Source: Lentisphaerota bacterium
Lineage (GTDB): Bacteria; Verrucomicrobiota; Kiritimatiellia; RFP12; JAAYNR01
Assembly: GCA_016873675.1 (NCBI GenBank)
Contig: VGWG01000017.1
Span: 1 to 40,068 of the forward strand
Direction of reading: 5' to 3'
DNA length: 40,068 nucleotides
Shown: piece by piece, positions 11,625 to 38,842 of the stretch
How positions within the stretch are numbered: position 1 is the first letter of the stretch
How the letters are laid out: each line of letters opens with the position of its first letter
The notes under the pieces: generated by a model
Databases searched by the model: none
What the model saw: only the letters and a program-made list of their open reading frames with translations
Told to the model about the DNA's origin: nothing
Translations under genes and position numbers: made by a program

Positions 11625-12155
11625 TTACAGCTTCCTGCGCCGTCGCGCGGCCAAAGCCGCCGCACCTAGCGCGAGGAGCGCAAAGGTGTTGGGTTCAGGA
11701 ACAAGACGCCATCCCGAGTCCCCGGTCTGCTCAGGCCACACCGCGCCACCCGTCGGCATAAAGAGCCCGGTAGCCGGAGCCATGCCATCTTCGGCAAACG
11801 CATTGTATCCGGTGTCGTTCCACGCCAAGGACTGAATGCTCCGATACGTGGGCGTAACGCCGTCAAACAATACGACGAAGTAGGCGCCTTGGGTACGGTC
11901 GACGTCTGTAGCAATGTTGTCATAAACAATGCCACTGCCGACGCCAAAACCGCTGGCCGTGTCAACCGACGTATAGGCATTACCGGTATACTCTTCATAA
12001 TTCCACGTGCCATCCGGCACCCAGAACAACTGCGCAGTTGTAAAGGATCCCACAAGAGGACCCGTCGTCTCCGCAGCCCACGTGATGATCACGGCCTGTG
12101 AAGCTGAAACCCAGCCCATGCCGATCAAAACCGCCAACAACAATTTGTTTTTCAT
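11625..12155 (-). CDS. PEP-CTERM sorting domain protein
   Basis: This protein has 176 residues. It has a Sec signal peptide (MKNKLLLAVLIGMGWVSASQA, about 21 residues), a Thr/Gly-rich beta-type body and a classical C-terminal PEP-CTERM signal from residue 152: VPEP, a hydrophobic helix FALLALGAAALAA and a basic RRRRKL tail. Such proteins are exported, then cleaved and anchored or released by an exosortase (EpsH/XrtA type), often in organisms making exopolysaccharide. No exosortase gene is in the window. The function of the body is unknown. A GGGGAGG site precedes the ATG. It is the last gene of a four-gene minus-strand unit that ends at a strong terminator. Confidence 0.88.
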   Translation of the reverse strand: MKNKLLLAVLIGMGWVSASQAVIITWAAETTGPLVGSFTTAQLFWVPDGTWNYEEYTGNAYTSVDTASGFGVGSGIVYDNIATDVDRTQGAYFVVLFDGVTPTYRSIQSLAWNDTGYNAFAEDGMAPATGLFMPTGGAVWPEQTGDSGWRLVPEPNTFALLALGAAALAARRRRKL

Positions 12156-24647: not shown

Positions 24648-25706
24648 ATGAAAGATTCGCGGGCGTCATGGATGAAGCAGGGGAAGTTCGGCGTGATGGT
24701 CCACTGGTGCGTGCCGAAGACGCCGCCGCAATACGGCAAACGCATCGAGGATATCAACCAGGCTGCGGACCGGTTCGATGTGGACCGCTTTATCAAGGAT
24801 TTCCGCCGGACTAAGGCAGATTGGCTCATCTTCACGATTGGACAAGACAAGGGGTTTGCCAGCCCGAACAGCGTCATGGATCGTCTGGCAGGTCCGGGAC
24901 ATTGCACGCGGCGCGACCTGATTTTGGAGGTTGCTAAGGAGGTAAAAAAACTCGGCCGCAGGTTTGTGGCCTACTTGCCGACGATGTCCAACCGGAAGCG
25001 TTTTCCTTTTGGTCCAGTCCGCATGTCGGAACAGGCCTACCTGCGACTGTACACGGATCTGATCGAAGAATATGCGCGGCGTTTTGGAAAGAATCTGGAT
25101 GGCTGGTGGTTTGACGGCGGCTCCGTGGATCCGGATCTGCGCGACGTACTTGTCAACCGCCTGCGTGCCGCAAGAGCTGGCAACCCGGATGCGGTCGTAA
25201 CGTTCAATGACGGGTCCATCTGTCTCGGCCTGTCCCAGCCGGCAGTTCTTGGCCAGGACTACCTTGCTGGCGAATCCGAATTTTTGTTGAAGGGCAAGAT
25301 CCGTTACGGGCGCGGGACAGATGTCCTGACGCCGATGCCAGGCGGAGTGTCTTCGCGTAAGCCTGTCATGGGTCGTGGTGTCACGGATTGCCTGGGATAT
25401 GTTCGCACCCTGCCGTTGCCGCAACCGCCAGCGACGTGCCTCTGGCACGCATTGCTGCCGATTGATTGCATGTGGGAAACGGGCATTTCGTTTAACCCCG
25501 ACTGGCAGAATCCGGCCTTTCCGTGGGTTGCCCCCAAGCCGCACAAGATGGAGAAGCCGCTTTACACCCTGGACGACCTCGAGACCGTGGTGCGGGACTT
25601 CAAGTCCGTCGGCGGCGGCGTCACGTTCAACATCGGCATCTTTCAGGAGGGCGGTCTCGGCCCGGACACGGTGGATCAACTGGCCAAACTGGCGCGGCGT
25701 ATCTAG
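24648..25706 (+). CDS. GH29-like alpha-L-fucosidase (paralogue 1)
   Basis: This protein has 352 residues with no signal peptide. The N-terminus MKDSRASWMKQGKFGVMVHW matches the start of the GH29 (beta/alpha)8 barrel. RFDVDRFIKDFRRTKADWLIFT follows, and LDGWWFDGGS (near residues 148-157) holds the Asp that serves as nucleophile in GH29. The C-terminus VGGGVTFNIGIFQEGGLG is typical. It lacks the usual C-terminal beta domain. A near-relative lies at 29219-30274 on the other strand, and many stretches are identical. It ends overlapping the stop of the GH2 gene (TCTAGA palindrome). GGAAGAG precedes the start. Fucosidase activity is probable but not proven; another 6-deoxyhexosidase is possible. 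Confidence 0.75.
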   Translation: MKDSRASWMKQGKFGVMVHWCVPKTPPQYGKRIEDINQAADRFDVDRFIKDFRRTKADWLIFTIGQDKGFASPNSVMDRLAGPGHCTRRDLILEVAKEVKKLGRRFVAYLPTMSNRKRFPFGPVRMSEQAYLRLYTDLIEEYARRFGKNLDGWWFDGGSVDPDLRDVLVNRLRAARAGNPDAVVTFNDGSICLGLSQPAVLGQDYLAGESEFLLKGKIRYGRGTDVLTPMPGGVSSRKPVMGRGVTDCLGYVRTLPLPQPPATCLWHALLPIDCMWETGISFNPDWQNPAFPWVAPKPHKMEKPLYTLDDLETVVRDFKSVGGGVTFNIGIFQEGGLGPDTVDQLAKLARRI

Positions 25707-28066
25707 AAACCAGTTGTCCTGAGTGCAAGGGTGGTGGTGCCCGTGCGCAAACCCTTCGCCTCCGCCTGCAGTTTGAGTTTTCTGGTTTTTCTGCCAGCCT
25801 GCACGATGATCTGGGCCAGACCGTTGAACACGCTGCGCTTCCATGGATCCCCATCCGAGCCCTTGTCCGGCTCGTGGCAGGAAGGGTCGCCATTGCCCAC
25901 GCCGATGATTTTGCCGGGACCGGAAAGTGTAAAGCGCACCTCGTTGTCGGCCACGGGCACAAGTCTTCCTTGTCTGTCGAGAACGGCAACCGTGATGATT
26001 GACACGTCCATTCCGTCCGCCGCAATGACGGCCCGGTCAGGCGTCAGTTGAATGGCTGCTGGCGCGCCGGTGGTCTCCACGCGTTTCTCCGCGATCAGCT
26101 TGCGCCGTTTGTACCCCTTGGCCTGCAAGGCACCGGGGGCATACGGAACCATCCAGGAGAGATAGCCAAGCTGCGGCATGGCCTTCCGGCCCAGACTCCG
26201 GTCGTTCAAGAACAGCTCGACCTCGTCACAGTTGCTATAGCACCAGACGTCAATCTCCTGCCCCTCCCTGCCCGGCCAGTTCCAGTGCGGCAGGAAATGG
26301 AGCACGGTCCTGGACGTCCACCAGGATTGAAAGTAGTAGAAACTGTCCTTGGGAAAACCGCAGGTGTCGAGAATCCCGAAATTTGAACTGACGCACGGCC
26401 ACTTGTCATGTGGCGCCGGTTCACCCCGGTAGTCGAATCCGGTCCAGGCAAAGGTGCCAGCCAGGAATGGACGATTCTCGAAGAAAGGGACCCATTCACG
26501 GGACGACTTACCCCATTGCGAGGGGAATTCCAGGTCGTAAGCCGTCACATATCCTTTGGCCGCATCCTTCTCGTAGATCCCTCGTGTGGTCAGTACACTG
26601 CCTTCCTCGCTGCCCACGATCGGCAGCGTTGGATTGTCGGCGTGCAGCTTGTCCATGTCGCCCAGGAAAATGTAGTTTACGCCCATCACGTCCACCACGC
26701 CGAAGTACCCCTTCTCCCCCCACGCTCCGGCAGTGACCGGACGAGTCGGGTCCAGGCGCTTGACCAGCCGTTTCATGGGTGCGGCCACGCGGTTCCCCAT
26801 CTCCGTCCACTGAATCGGCTCCTCGTTGAGGATGGACCAAAGAATGACACTGGGGTGGTTTCGGTCGCGGCGGACCAGACACTCCAACTGGCCAAGGATC
26901 TCGCGGCTGCTCCCCATCATGCGATGCTCATCCATGATCAGCATCCCCAACCGGTCGCAGGCGTCCAGGAGTTCCGGGGTTGGTGGATTGTGCGACGTGC
27001 GAATGGCGTTGCACCCCATCTCCTTGAGTCGTTCGACGCGGAAGGACTGGATCCGATCCGGCAGGGCCACCCCTACCCCGGCGTGGTCTTGGTGGTTGCA
27101 GGTGCCGCGGATCTTCACGGGCTTGTTGTTGAGGAAGAACCCTTTGTCCGGATCGAAGCGAATGGAACGGATGCCGAACGGCGTATCCAGACGGTCCACC
27201 TCGCGCCCGTTCTGCAGAATGGTCGTCCGCCAGGTGTAGAGATTGGGCGATTCCAACGACCAGAGCGCGGGGTTCTTGAGCGTTATTTTAAGCGTCACGT
27301 TCCGCTGTCCCCATGGCGGCAGCGCAATCCCCCGCTTCAGGCATTTCTGAACCACGTTGCCTTCCGCATCGATTACTTCGCCCCGGATCTCTACGGTGGC
27401 GGCCTGTTCGCCCTCATTGACCACCGCGACATCCGTGCGGATGGCGGCCTGGGCGCGACCCGGGCGCGTCTGGACGAAGGCCCCCCAATGCCCAACGTGC
27501 ACGGGCGCTGTTTTGGTCAGCCACACATGGCGGTAGATGCCGGCACCTTCATAAAACCACCCCTCGAAGTGTGTGGCGTCCACCCGCACGACTAGAACAT
27601 TCTTCTCGCCGAACAAAGTGTAATCCGTGCAATCGTACTGGAAACTGCTGTAGCCACTCTCGTTCCTTCCCAGATAATGACCGTTCAGCCAGGCGGAACA
27701 ATCCCGGAATACACCGTCGAACTCCAAGGTGATACGGCGGCTGGCGTCGGATGCCGGAATTTCAATAGTTTTCCGGTATCAGCCGATCGTGGTCGCGGGG
27801 GAACCGCGGCCTACCGGCTTGAAGCCGTGATGAAAAATGGCCGACTCGTCGAACGGCAGTTCCACGGCCCAGTCGTGCGGCAGATCGAGCAAACGCCACG
27901 CGGTGTCGTCGAACTTTGGGCTGAGCACGCCGTTGGAGTTGCCGGTCTTGCTGAAAATCTGGTGATCACTGCCGAAGGCGAAGTCCAATGTCGGGTCGGC
28001 CGCGTGCCCGAAAGCAAAGCGCCAGCCTTCATCCAGCGACAGCCGTTGCCTGTAATCTTGTGACAT
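25703..28066 (-). pseudogene. GH2-family glycoside hydrolase (beta-galactosidase type), interrupted by one in-frame TGA
   Basis: The unit encodes 787 codons from the ATG at 28066 (AGGAG six bases upstream; an ATG at 28084 overlaps the previous stop). The domains are those of GH2: N-terminal sandwich (LDLPHDWAVELPF, then LEFDGVFRDCSAWLNG, YEGAGIYRHVW), immunoglobulin-like part, TIM barrel with NAIRTSHNPPTPELLD, the acid/base SILNEEP and the nucleophile region VGSEEG, and C-terminal beta domains. Codon 96 (27781-27779) is TGA within TTIG-stop-YRKTIEIP, where the family has Trp (GWYRK). The frame is unbroken on both sides, so a single substitution TGG to TGA explains it. If not read through, only about 95 residues are made, and an internal TTG near 27727 might start the rest. 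Confidence 0.85.
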
Positions 28067-28080
28067 CGTCTCTCCTGCTT

Positions 28081-29193
28081 TCATGTCTTCATTCCGAACA
28101 TCCGTTCCTTTAGATCCAGATAGTAAAGGTAATCGTTCTCATTCACATCCGGCGGACAGCGGTGATCGCAGAACGGGATGTAGCCGCCGCGCGCCACCAG
28201 CGGCGCGACGGATTCCAGATACGCCTTGATCGCCTCGCGCCCCTTGATCAGCGCCATCTTGTCGATGCCTCCCATGATGCGCAGATCCTTGCCGTACTCG
28301 TCCAACAAGATCTTCGGGTGCACGCAACTGTTGACTTCGTAGGGGAACAGGCAGTTGATGCCGGCTTCCAGAAACCCGGGCAGAAGCGGCCGCACATCGC
28401 CGTCACAGTCGGTGTACCAAATGTCGATGCCGACGGCCTTGAGTTTCTTGCCGATCCGCTTGTAGCGCGGGACTACGATCTGGGTGAAGAAGTCGAGCGA
28501 GACGATCGGCCCGTTCTTGAAGCAGATGTCTTCCCAGCCGGTCGCGAAATCAAATTCCACGTGCGGCAGAAGCTGGTCCAGCATGTCTTCCACTAGGACG
28601 CAGGACGTCTCGACCATGTCGGGATAGTCGTAGCAGGCGTACGCGAGCCCTTCGAAGGTGAGCATGTTCCGGATGGTTCCGATCATGGATCCGCACGGGA
28701 TGCCCTGCGGCCTGTCCCGTTCGGCGGGATGCCGTTGTTTCTCGACTTCGACGTTCAACGTGCGGGCCGGATCGTCGCGACGGAGGCGCTCTTCCTTGCA
28801 CCTTTTCCAGTCGTCCGGCGTGACGATGCTGGCCTTGATGTAGTGAGGGATGGTGCCATGCCCATCCTTCGGGACCTCGGCCAGCAGGCCGTCGCCGTTC
28901 ATGAGCGTCCGGGTGGTCTCGGTTTCCGAGACCACCGTTTGCGGGAAAGATGGATTCATCCACGTGTTTGGCCAAACCGAATCAAGCGAGTCGAAGGCAA
29001 ACATCTCATTGGCTTGTCACTCGTGCTTGATCCCGTTCTTCTTGAAGATGGACCAAGCTTCGTAGTTCTCTTCCCAGTAGCCGAACTCCATGTTAAAGGA
29101 TCGGTCCACCGACTGATAATGCATCTGCCGGTTGAACCGTTCCCTCCCGGTCATGGTTCCCTTCCAGGGTTTGCGATACGGTGTGATGGCCAT
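28081..29193 (-). pseudogene. URO-D-family protein (uroporphyrinogen decarboxylase like), interrupted by one in-frame TGA
   Basis: The unit encodes 370 codons from the ATG at 29193 (AAGGAAG upstream). The protein belongs to the uroporphyrinogen decarboxylase/methyltransferase superfamily often found in sugar-utilisation clusters of this phylum group, not the haem enzyme itself. Landmarks are TGRERFNRQMHYQSVDR near the start, EVPKDGHGTIPHYIKASIVTPDDWKRC, VEFDFATGWEDICFKNGPIVS, GIDIWYTDCDGDVR and IPFCDHRCPPDV. Codon 59 (29019-29017) is TGA in KNGIKHE-stop-QANEMFAFD, with the frame intact on both sides; Trp is the simplest lost residue. The gene's own natural stop is also TGA. It sits between the second GH29 and GH2 genes. 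The function is unknown. Confidence 0.8.
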
Positions 29194-29218
29194 AATGATG
29201 CTTCCTTGCTTTCGAGAC

Positions 29219-30274
29219 CTATTTTCCGCTTTTGACCGCACTCTGGACAGCCTGCTTGTCCAGACGTTCCGCCAGTTCCGCAAGTTGATCCACCGTCTTC
29301 GGGCCCACCACGCCTTCCTGGAAGATCCCGACATTGAACGTCACGCCACCGCCCACGGCTTTGAATTCCCGCACGAGTTTTTCGAGATCATTCACCGTGT
29401 AAAGCGGGTCCTCCATCTGGTGCGGTTTCGGCGGGACACAGGGAAACGGCGCATTCATCCAATCCGGGTAGTTACCGCCATGCCCCCACATGCAGTCAAT
29501 GGGAACCAGGGCATGCCACAGGCAGGCGCGCGGGGGTTGCAGCTTGTGCGTCGCCGGTGTCAGCAGCCTCTTCTTGCGCCCGTACCGAACCCTGCCATTG
29601 ATCAGGAACTCGACTTCTCCGGACAGGTAGTCCTGCCCGCGAACCACAGGGGCGCTGAGGCCGCAACAGAATGAACCGTCGTTGAACGCGACGGCCGCAT
29701 CCGGATTGCCCGCCCGCGCGGCGTTCATGTAGAGCTTGGTGTTGATCTTGGAGCTGTGGAAGACCGGCCAGGTATAGGCGCCGTCAAACCACCACCCGTC
29801 CAGCCGTTTCCCGAGCCGCCGGGAGTACTCCGCGAAGAACGCCGTATAGCGGCGCTGGAAATCCTCCTGACCGGTGCCGTCCGTCGTCGTCCAGGCGAAC
29901 GCCTGGCGTACGGCTTCCGATTGCCCCTTCACTTCGCAGGGGAGATAGGCAATAAATCGCGCGCCTGTTTTTTTGACACCGTCGGCCATTTCGAGCACCA
30001 GATCGCGACGCGAACAACGCCCGGGACCGGCCAGATGGTCGAGCACGCTGTTGGGACTGGAGTAGTAGCCGCTGTTCTGGCCGATCGTAAAGATCAGCCA
30101 GTCCGCCCCGCTGCGCCGGAATTCCGCCAGAAAACGATCCACGTCGAAACGGTCAACGGCCTGGTTGATATCCTTCAGGTGCCGCCCGTACTGGGGCGGG
30201 GGCCCCGGCGGAATCCAATGCACCATCACGCCGAACTTTCCGTGCCCCATCCATGCTGCCCGCGAGTTCTTCAT
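29219..30274 (-). CDS. GH29-like alpha-L-fucosidase (paralogue 2)
   Basis: This protein has 351 residues from the ATG at 30274, with AAAGGGG upstream; that start matches paralogue 1 (MKNSRAAW against MKDSRASW). The same GH29 landmarks occur: GKFGVMVHWIPPGPPPQYG, RFDVDRFLAEF, ADWLIFTIGQ and the nucleophile region LDGWWFDGAY. AFNDGSFCCGLSAPVVRGQDYLSGE and VGGGVTFNVGIFQEGVVG follow. The middle differs: paralogue 2 has an insertion before the nucleophile strand (SEAVRQAFAWTTTDGTG). It has no signal peptide. It lies in the minus-strand run, 25 bases before the URO-D gene. It is probably cytoplasmic and acts on imported fucosylated oligosaccharides; specificity is inferred. Confidence 0.75.
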   Translation of the reverse strand: MKNSRAAWMGHGKFGVMVHWIPPGPPPQYGRHLKDINQAVDRFDVDRFLAEFRRSGADWLIFTIGQNSGYYSSPNSVLDHLAGPGRCSRRDLVLEMADGVKKTGARFIAYLPCEVKGQSEAVRQAFAWTTTDGTGQEDFQRRYTAFFAEYSRRLGKRLDGWWFDGAYTWPVFHSSKINTKLYMNAARAGNPDAAVAFNDGSFCCGLSAPVVRGQDYLSGEVEFLINGRVRYGRKKRLLTPATHKLQPPRACLWHALVPIDCMWGHGGNYPDWMNAPFPCVPPKPHQMEDPLYTVNDLEKLVREFKAVGGGVTFNVGIFQEGVVGPKTVDQLAELAERLDKQAVQSAVKSGK

Positions 30275-30297
30275 TGTGCCCCTTTCTGACAATCATG

Positions 30298-31053
30298 CTA
30301 GCTTTGGTCTATTCTGAACAACAAGCCATCGGCTGCGGCAGCTGGCCGGCCGCAAACGTGCAGCGCGGCCTTGGCCGCGTCCCACGTCCAAGTGCCAGGC
30401 GAAGCGTCACCGTCAGCGCGCGTCAGCGCCTCCGTGCCCAACAACACCCGCTTGAACGGTACGGCCACACCACGCACCTGCAGATCCCACGTTCGCTGTG
30501 CTGGCACGCCACGATACGTGCCGGTCGTCGGGCCGTAGATGAAGAACTGGTCGTGGATCTCGTTGTTGCGATGCTCCGAGGTCTCGGGCGACGGCGCCAG
30601 ATAGGTGTCGCAGTAGCGGCCGGTCTCCGGATTGTAGAACCAGTGCCCGTTGCGGTCGTTCAGGTTCTCCTCGCCGAACGCGCTGGCGGAGTCGAAGAGT
30701 GTGTACCCATCCTTGAACATGCCGTACACCGGCCCGCCCGAGGGACAGATCCGCCGGCTGCCGTCGGCCGTCCAGACCGTGAAGCGGAAGTCGAACTTGG
30801 CGATTCGGATGCGCAGGGCTGCGGTGGTGACGACGACTTCCCCGTCATTCTCGGTGCGGGTGAACGGCACAGGCGCCCAGTTCGTGTGCTTCCCCACGGC
30901 AAAGGGGATCTCATAGGCGGGCGGGAAGGGGTCGTTCCCCTGCAGGCGCGACAGGCGGATGCGGAAGGCGCGCGCCGTGAACAAATCCAGACGCAGGCGC
31001 GCCACCACCGGCACGTGGGTGCAATACGAATTCAAATCCAAGGCTGTGTTCAT
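30298..31053 (-). CDS. GH31-like N-terminal and C-terminal beta-domain protein without catalytic barrel
   Basis: This protein has 251 residues from the ATG at 31053; an in-frame start 36 bases upstream is possible. The first 130 residues look like the N-terminal beta-sandwich of GH31 alpha-glycosidases: LFTARAFRIRLSRLQG, then GEVVVTTAALRIRIAKFDFRFTVW and DGSRRICPSGG. A QFFIYG segment, which in GH31 leads into the (beta/alpha)8 barrel, is followed directly by a short beta domain (RVLLGTEALTR to ADGLLFRIDQ) like the C-terminal part of GH31. No barrel and no catalytic Asp motifs are seen. It may be a barrel-deleted remnant or a stand-alone sugar-binding protein. Weak ribosome-binding site. The assignment is tentative. 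Confidence 0.5.
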   Translation of the reverse strand: MNTALDLNSYCTHVPVVARLRLDLFTARAFRIRLSRLQGNDPFPPAYEIPFAVGKHTNWAPVPFTRTENDGEVVVTTAALRIRIAKFDFRFTVWTADGSRRICPSGGPVYGMFKDGYTLFDSASAFGEENLNDRNGHWFYNPETGRYCDTYLAPSPETSEHRNNEIHDQFFIYGPTTGTYRGVPAQRTWDLQVRGVAVPFKRVLLGTEALTRADGDASPGTWTWDAAKAALHVCGRPAAAADGLLFRIDQS

Positions 31054-31135: not shown

Positions 31136-32419
31136 TTAAGCCCGTTTCATCAGCCGCCGCAACCGCGCCTGGCATTCGCACATGGAGCGGCCCGAGTGAT
31201 AGGAGACCTTCCAGTCGTTGCCGATGTTCGCGTCGAGCGGTTTGCCCTGGCGGTCGAGCAGCGTGCGCCACTCACCCACCCCGACAATGATCATGTGCGT
31301 GCTGATGAAGTCCCACAGGCACTCGAAGGCATCGAGGCAGCGCGGATCATGGAAGGCCTCATAGGCATCGAGGAAGCCGACGAGCGCTTCCGCGTGCTGC
31401 CAGAACTCCTTCTCCAGCACCAGGGCACCGCCTTTGCGCAGGCCGTCGCGGTAGATGCCGCCGAACGTCCAGTCCACGCCGTACTTCAAGGCATTGTCCA
31501 CCAGCTTGCGGAGCAGCGGCTCATACGGCTTCGGGTCGGCATCGGCGATCGCGAGCGCGCGGTGCATCAACCAGACGAGTTCCAGATTGTGACCGTAAGA
31601 CGTTGTCTCGGTCGGCTGCGCCGGCCGCTCCCCGAACCGCTCGGCGTTCCACGTGCGCTTGACGGCGATGGCCGGGATCGGGTTCCAGGCCAGGTCGAAC
31701 TGGTTCAACCCGCAGCCGCGCCGGGTATCGATCATGTGCGCGCAGATCAGGTCTACGACCTCCATCAGCTTGCGCCGGTGGAGGGGGGCGCGGGACGCCT
31801 CGTAGAGCGTGGTAAAGGACTCCATCAGGTGCATATGCGTATCCAGCCCCTTGCGGTCGCCGCCCGAGAAACCAGGCTCCTCGGGCAACCAATCGCGGCA
31901 GAGGTTCTCGTAGTAGCCGCCGTACCGCGTGTCGGCGGCGAACTTCTGCAGGAGGTCGAACGTGCGGGAGGCAGTCTCCACGCCGCGCTTGTCGCCGGTC
32001 CCCAGCGTGTATTCGGCCATGGCGTAGATCGCGAAGCTTTCGCCGTAGACGATCTTGCCTGTGTCGCTGCGGTTGCCGTTGGGCTTCGTCTTCCAGTACC
32101 AGCCGCCATGCTTCGGGTCCCAGAAATGCGTGAGCAGAAATTCCGCGCCGCCGCGCGCCAGCGCCGCGCTCCCCTTGACCTTGGGCTGCTGCCGGCACAG
32201 GTTCGAGAACCACCAGACCAGCCGCGCCTGGGTGTTGACGTACTTCTCCTTGAGCGGCGTGGCGTTGCCCTGCTCATCGAAGCGGACCCGATACCCGCCG
32301 TGCTTCGCGTCGCGGGCGCGGGCATGCCAGAACGGAATGAGGCCGGTGGTCAGGTGCTTCGTGATCTCGGCTTCGAGGCGTTGCAGACGCTGGGTTGTCT
32401 TCTTGGATGTTTTGTTCAT
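31136..32419 (-). CDS. AGE-family (N-acylglucosamine 2-epimerase / cellobiose 2-epimerase type) protein
   Basis: This protein has 427 residues forming an (alpha/alpha)6 barrel. The N-terminal half has LIPFWHARARDAKHGGYRVRFD and WDPKHGGWYWKTKPNG; the middle has KGLDTHMHLMESFTTLYEAS and TTSYGHNLELVWLMHRA; the C-terminus has KEFWQHAEALVGFLDAYE. The His residues in HMHLMES, SYGHN and WQHAE are those used by cellobiose 2-epimerase and acylglucosamine epimerase for proton transfer at C2. It is cytoplasmic. The pattern of GYR and GWYW near the N-terminus favours a disaccharide or mannose-type epimerase rather than an amino-sugar one, by inference only. AAAGGAG lies just upstream. It sits in the run of glycosidases and is consistent with sugar epimerisation after import. 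Confidence 0.88.
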   Translation of the reverse strand: MNKTSKKTTQRLQRLEAEITKHLTTGLIPFWHARARDAKHGGYRVRFDEQGNATPLKEKYVNTQARLVWWFSNLCRQQPKVKGSAALARGGAEFLLTHFWDPKHGGWYWKTKPNGNRSDTGKIVYGESFAIYAMAEYTLGTGDKRGVETASRTFDLLQKFAADTRYGGYYENLCRDWLPEEPGFSGGDRKGLDTHMHLMESFTTLYEASRAPLHRRKLMEVVDLICAHMIDTRRGCGLNQFDLAWNPIPAIAVKRTWNAERFGERPAQPTETTSYGHNLELVWLMHRALAIADADPKPYEPLLRKLVDNALKYGVDWTFGGIYRDGLRKGGALVLEKEFWQHAEALVGFLDAYEAFHDPRCLDAFECLWDFISTHMIIVGVGEWRTLLDRQGKPLDANIGNDWKVSYHSGRSMCECQARLRRLMKRA

Positions 32420-38412: not shown

Positions 38413-38760
38413 TTACTTCAGGATCATGTCCTTGGCGGCCTTGGCCACGCGGAACTTGACGACCGTCTTGGCCGGGATCTTGATCGTTGCGCCTGTGGCC
38501 GGGTTGCGACCCATGCGGGCGGGACGCTTCACCTTGATCAGCTTGCCCAAGCCGGGGAGGACAATACCCTTGGGCTGTTTCGCGCCGACATAGGCGATTG
38601 CCAACAGGACATCATACACGGTGGATGCCTGCTTCTTGCTGATTTCACCATTGGCGGCGAGCGCAGCCAGAATCTGGCTCTTCGTCGTTATTGCGGAGAC
38701 CTTCTTGGGCGCAGCCTTCTTGGCCACAACCTTCTTCGCAGGGGCGGCTTTACTAGCCAT
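38413..38760 (-). CDS. HU/IHF-family DNA-binding protein with Ala/Lys-rich N-terminal tail
   Basis: This protein has 115 residues from the ATG at 38760 (AAGGAG nine bases upstream). A 25-residue tail (MASKAAPAKKVVAKKAAPKK) is rich in Lys, Ala and Pro, as in the histone H1-like tails of some HU proteins. The HU fold follows: TTKSQILAALAANGEISKKQASTVYDVLL, then the beta arm region KPARMGRNPATGATIKIPAKTVVKFRVAKAAKDMI, with the conserved GRNPxTG. It binds and bends DNA in the nucleoid. It is a stand-alone unit with its own promoter and a strong terminator. Its leader carries an 8-bp hairpin. Confidence 0.93.
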   Translation of the reverse strand: MASKAAPAKKVVAKKAAPKKVSAITTKSQILAALAANGEISKKQASTVYDVLLAIAYVGAKQPKGIVLPGLGKLIKVKRPARMGRNPATGATIKIPAKTVVKFRVAKAAKDMILK

Positions 38761-38779
38761 GATGTGAACTCCTTGTTGC

Positions 38780-38799
38780 GGTTTTATGGGGATAAAACC
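38780..38799. promoter_or_regulatory. Hairpin in the HU gene leader
   Basis: GGTTTTAT (38780-38787) and ATAAAACC (38792-38799) pair perfectly around GGGG, 20 bases ahead of the start codon and near the ribosome-binding site. A fold in the HU messenger could affect translation or stability. This is inference. Confidence 0.45.
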
Positions 38800-38814
38800 C
38801 CACGTGTTGATAAG

Positions 38815-38842
38815 AATGTAACGCATTCCGCCGGAGAATCAA
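38815..38842 (-). promoter_or_regulatory. Putative promoter of the HU gene
   Basis: On the minus strand TTGATT (38837-38842) and TACATT (38815-38820) are 16 bases apart, giving a leader of about 50 bases that contains the hairpin at 38780-38799. Confidence 0.5.

Follow-up and report, generated by a model that had tools for sequence, protein, structure and literature searches.

In the lineages that use NCBI genetic code 4, UGA is read as tryptophan. The locus described here resembles them in carrying TGA where close relatives have tryptophan, but TGA is the main terminator in this genome, RF2 is intact, a tRNA with a UCA anticodon was not found in the 70% of the genome covered, and only two sites are concerned, one of which is not a conserved tryptophan. 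A second precedent comes from Shigella, in which decayed genes gather in certain operons, genes for carbon utilisation tend to be inactivated and the loss of one gene weakens selection on the rest of its operon (PMC3218036). The present locus shares with Shigella the apparently independent breakage of several genes of a putative catabolic operon while most of the genome is intact, and in both cases the genes that tend to be lost include some for carbon utilisation; it differs in belonging to an uncultured bacterium with PVC-group relatives, represented by one assembled genome, and in having Ka/Ks ratios similar to those of the flanking genes. We consider it probable that the lesions reported below, in genes encoding GH2, URO-D-like and GH31-family proteins, mark a sugar-catabolism operon early in being lost, through ordinary gene decay and not through a local change of the code.

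The gene cluster and its lesions

The window, that is, the whole 40,068-nt stretch of DNA analysed, is contig C17 (VGWG01000017.1) of the Lentisphaerota bacterium assembly GCA_016873675.1 (3.17 Mb, 218 contigs; G000), which was compared in particular with a genome of the same genus (G001) and one of the same order (G008). On the minus strand the cluster runs from an N-acylglucosamine 2-epimerase (AGE) family gene (31136-32419), apparently intact and 88% identical to G001, through a GH31-family remnant, an alpha-L-fucosidase-family-like gene (29219-30292) in which no interruption was seen and a URO-D-like gene to a GH2 gene; judged only by their shared strand and close spacing, these five genes would form one operon. 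The stretch at 25703-30290 stands out in that its URO-D-like and fucosidase-like genes show 66-76% DNA identity to G001, as against 77-89% in the flanks, and in that the GH2 gene is without a counterpart at the G001 locus; because of this lower similarity and the absence of GH2 there, the stretch may have been horizontally acquired or rearranged. A search of the genome for other matches to the GH2/URO-D region returned a single 85-bp piece of 74% identity. Elsewhere in the window, positions 11625-12155 encode a short protein that carries a PEP-CTERM sorting motif, and at 38416-38826 conservation in G001 reaches upstream of a MASKAAPAKK start and through an in-frame TAA; since the conservation spans this TAA, the open reading frame is probably over-extended and the internal Met its likely start.

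Measured against the 751-residue G001 protein, the GH31-family gene (30298-31053, minus strand) retains residues 1-175 and 676-750, joined directly in the same reading frame, and residues 176-675 (500 codons, in frame) are missing. In the full-length G001 protein, residues 299-509 form the GH31 TIM barrel and residues 518-607 the GH31 C-terminal domain, and the remnant is left without either of these and without most of DUF5110; the catalytic core is thus gone, since the absent residues contain the TIM barrel. The orthologue is full length in both G001 and G008, the two proteins being 90% identical to each other, and the deletion junction (30523-30534, minus strand) shows short G/C-rich similarity at both breakpoints.

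The URO-D-like gene (28081-29193, minus strand) spans 370 codons with one interrupting TGA and has homologues of 60-77% identity across many phyla. Its TGA lies at residue 59 (29017-29019, minus strand), where G001 and G008 both have tryptophan, and the reading frame continues uninterrupted to either side. The same gene carries a second lesion, the contraction of a tandem 12-bp repeat, GACATGGTCGAG, of which a single copy is left (28609-28620, minus strand), removing four residues. Two tandem copies are kept in nearly all of 84 URO-D relatives, and two of the four lost residues are present in 99% of them.

The GH2 gene (25703-28066, minus strand; 787 codons with one interrupting TGA) encodes a GalA-like beta-galactosidase in which Pfam recognises GH2 N-terminal, middle and TIM-barrel domains, DUF4982 and C5. 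It resembles GalA-type enzymes in domain order, in catalytic motifs and in its approximately 54% identity to an annotated galA product, and differs from them in the in-frame TGA at residue 96 (27779-27781, minus strand), the tryptophan of a GWYRK motif, with the frame again open on both sides. An uninterrupted orthologue occurs in G008 (80% identity over the first half of the gene, the part compared). The catalytic motifs are kept, and only 1 of 97 invariant columns deviates.

The initial annotation had reported one in-frame TGA in each of the GH2 and URO-D genes with intact frames on either side, and this is borne out (27781-27779 and 29019-29017). Its picture of two damaged genes held for the TGA pair but overlooked the 500-codon GH31 deletion and the 12-bp contraction in URO-D. 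Likewise, its assignment of both TGA codons to conserved tryptophan positions stands for GH2, where eight of nine homologues have Trp and the ninth Tyr, but not for URO-D, whose residue 59 is not a conserved tryptophan, because only 15 of 88 homologues have Trp there (25 have Ala, 10 Glu, 8 Arg and the rest other residues), although the closest relatives do.

The stops might instead divide each gene into shorter functional proteins by re-initiation downstream. An ATG lies 5 codons past the URO-D stop, leaving 307 residues, and a TTG about 18 codons past the GH2 stop, leaving 674. On the other hand, the genes are uninterrupted in close relatives and the GH2 product would miss part of its sugar-binding domain, and we regard such splitting as extremely improbable.

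Internal stops and deletions across the genome

The census covered 2.21 Mb (70%) of the genome together with 0.4 Mb of G001. When G001 proteins were aligned to 2.2 Mb of G000 at a threshold of at least 45% identity (65,495 residues, about 170 alignments), a single internal stop, the URO-D TGA, was flanked on either side by conserved sequence, other stops falling at protein ends, and no large internal deletion was met apart from that in GH31. When the 22,967 same-frame stops, each with open frame before and after it, were tested by homology, convincing read-through matches were obtained only for the GH2 TGA and the URO-D TGA. The earlier suggestion that the two stops exceed what chance would produce is upheld by these counts. 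A second URO-D gene (contig C59), considered as a further TGA-interrupted case, was rejected, its TGA being its own C-terminal terminator.

A scan for other interrupted genes based on coding signal, the route by which genes lacking homologues were covered, gave 150 candidates, of which 40 were tested with Pfam; the scan is not exhaustive, because it missed the GH2 site itself. In 2 of these 40 a domain crossed the stop, the remainder being same-frame neighbouring genes or without Pfam evidence. The first is a WbsX-family gene (contig C43, L142:4670-5686) whose domain is interrupted by an in-frame TAG at L142:5354; it looks decayed, since its upstream part fails to align with most relatives. 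The second is an RlaP-family fragment (contig C4, L077:13959-14456) in which an in-frame TAA (L077:14286) lies close to the end and the body is apparently shortened. Gene breakage in this genome is therefore not specific to TGA, the other broken genes having TAG and TAA. At L130:13297-14045 we also observed what looks like a frameshift when compared with a G001 protein, pieces of 61% and 58% identity lying in different frames.

These counts bear on the reading in which both stops, and possibly also the deletion, are consensus errors or products of a strain-mixed assembly of a metagenome-type genome. The fragmentation of the genome into 218 contigs is compatible with such errors, and nearly all of the named relatives, G001 included, are metagenome-assembled; yet a noisy consensus would scatter stops over the whole genome, whereas one internal stop was met in 65,495 aligned residues, and three adjoining genes with four lesions of three kinds would be an odd place for errors to collect. 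We therefore consider an assembly artefact unlikely.

Termination machinery and the reading of UGA

A codon-pair gene model applied to the fetched 70% of the genome yielded 1,779 genes, of which 1,711 had their stop inside the stretch; these end in TGA 1,015 times (approximately 59%), in TAA 392 times and in TAG 304 times. Global reassignment of TGA, which the initial annotation had already excluded, is accordingly rejected, TGA being the main terminator. RF2 is present and intact; its loss was considered and dismissed, the TAG counted in the RF2 match lying at the extreme 5' end, ahead of the conserved region. The sole tRNA-Trp found has a CCA anticodon and an ordinary D-arm, and no UCA, CUA or UUA anticodon occurs among the 37 tRNAs in the same 70% of the genome. 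Selenocysteine was also rejected as the meaning of UGA, since Cys occurs at neither site in the 88 URO-D and 9 GH2 homologues. The proposed scan for further conserved-tryptophan TGA codons was run on this 70% as well: the many such codons that UGA-to-Trp recoding would entail genome-wide were not seen, and homology returned only the GH2 and URO-D sites, the latter at a variable position.

Local suppression, or a high level of natural readthrough, would have UGA inserted as tryptophan at both sites and full-length proteins made. The nearest relatives do have Trp at both positions, and GH2 and URO-D are otherwise well conserved. However, termination of 1,015 of 1,711 genes by TGA in the presence of RF2, the normal tRNA-Trp, the lack of suppressor-type anticodons among the 37 tRNAs and the dispensability of Trp at URO-D residue 59 all argue against it; moreover, readthrough leaves the GH31 deletion unexplained and cannot restore the lost barrel. 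UGA suppression, one of the options raised initially, thus has little in its favour, and we hold it to be very unlikely. Still less credible is a variant in which Trp is inserted at both TGA codons with partial efficiency, at this locus only, giving low-level, condition-dependent GH2 and URO-D while the operon is otherwise being lost. As for the shared identity of the stops, the chance that two random nonsense changes in GH2 and URO-D would both be TGA is approximately 4-9%, and that both would arise from TGG approximately 0.6-5%, depending on transition bias, so that the codon coincidence is modest.

Probable gene decay at the level of the operon

Recent paired decay, also among the options first listed, is strongly favoured by the loss of the GH31 core, the contraction of the URO-D repeat and the TAG and TAA interruptions in genes elsewhere. 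Relative to intact homologues, the cluster contains disabling lesions in more than one gene, above genome-wide expectation: four lesions of three kinds (two TGA codons, a 500-codon deletion and a 4-residue deletion) fall in three genes of one cluster. From these observations we infer loss of function, a common cause in relaxed selection and a possible order of events. The operon would have lost its usefulness, or a first gene would have broken, relaxing selection on the remaining genes, after which independent lesions would have built up in GH31, URO-D and GH2: an in-frame deletion of approximately 1.5 kb removing the GH31 catalytic core, slippage dropping one 12-bp copy of the repeat from URO-D, and point changes creating TGA in URO-D and in GH2.

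Two features speak against decay, namely that, lesions aside, GH2 and URO-D are well preserved (the single deviating invariant column in GH2 and a rate little raised in URO-D) and that each stop is a TGA where the ancestor probably had Trp. The dN/dS of URO-D (0.126-0.135, the upper value against G001) and that of the first half of GH2 against its G008 orthologue (0.156) lie within the range of the flanking genes (0.08-0.23); the C-terminal piece of GH31 gives 0.24. Relative-rate counts for URO-D are approximately 30 on the G000 lineage against 23, a slightly raised amino-acid rate. The unraised dN/dS of URO-D and GH2 may mean that decay is too recent to have left a mark there. Because these ratios (0.13-0.16) are close to those of flanking genes and the catalytic motifs are intact, the sequences indicate that the damage is probably recent and followed long constraint, selection having acted on the genes until a short time ago.

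Operon-level decay is a known process, and the pattern seen here fits it. The apparent local recoding dissolves once the neighbouring genes and the relatives are compared, the same putative operon containing a gene without its catalytic core. The locus offers a clear example of an operon in an uncultured bacterium that is probably at an early stage of decay, and a warning not to infer recoding from two stop codons.
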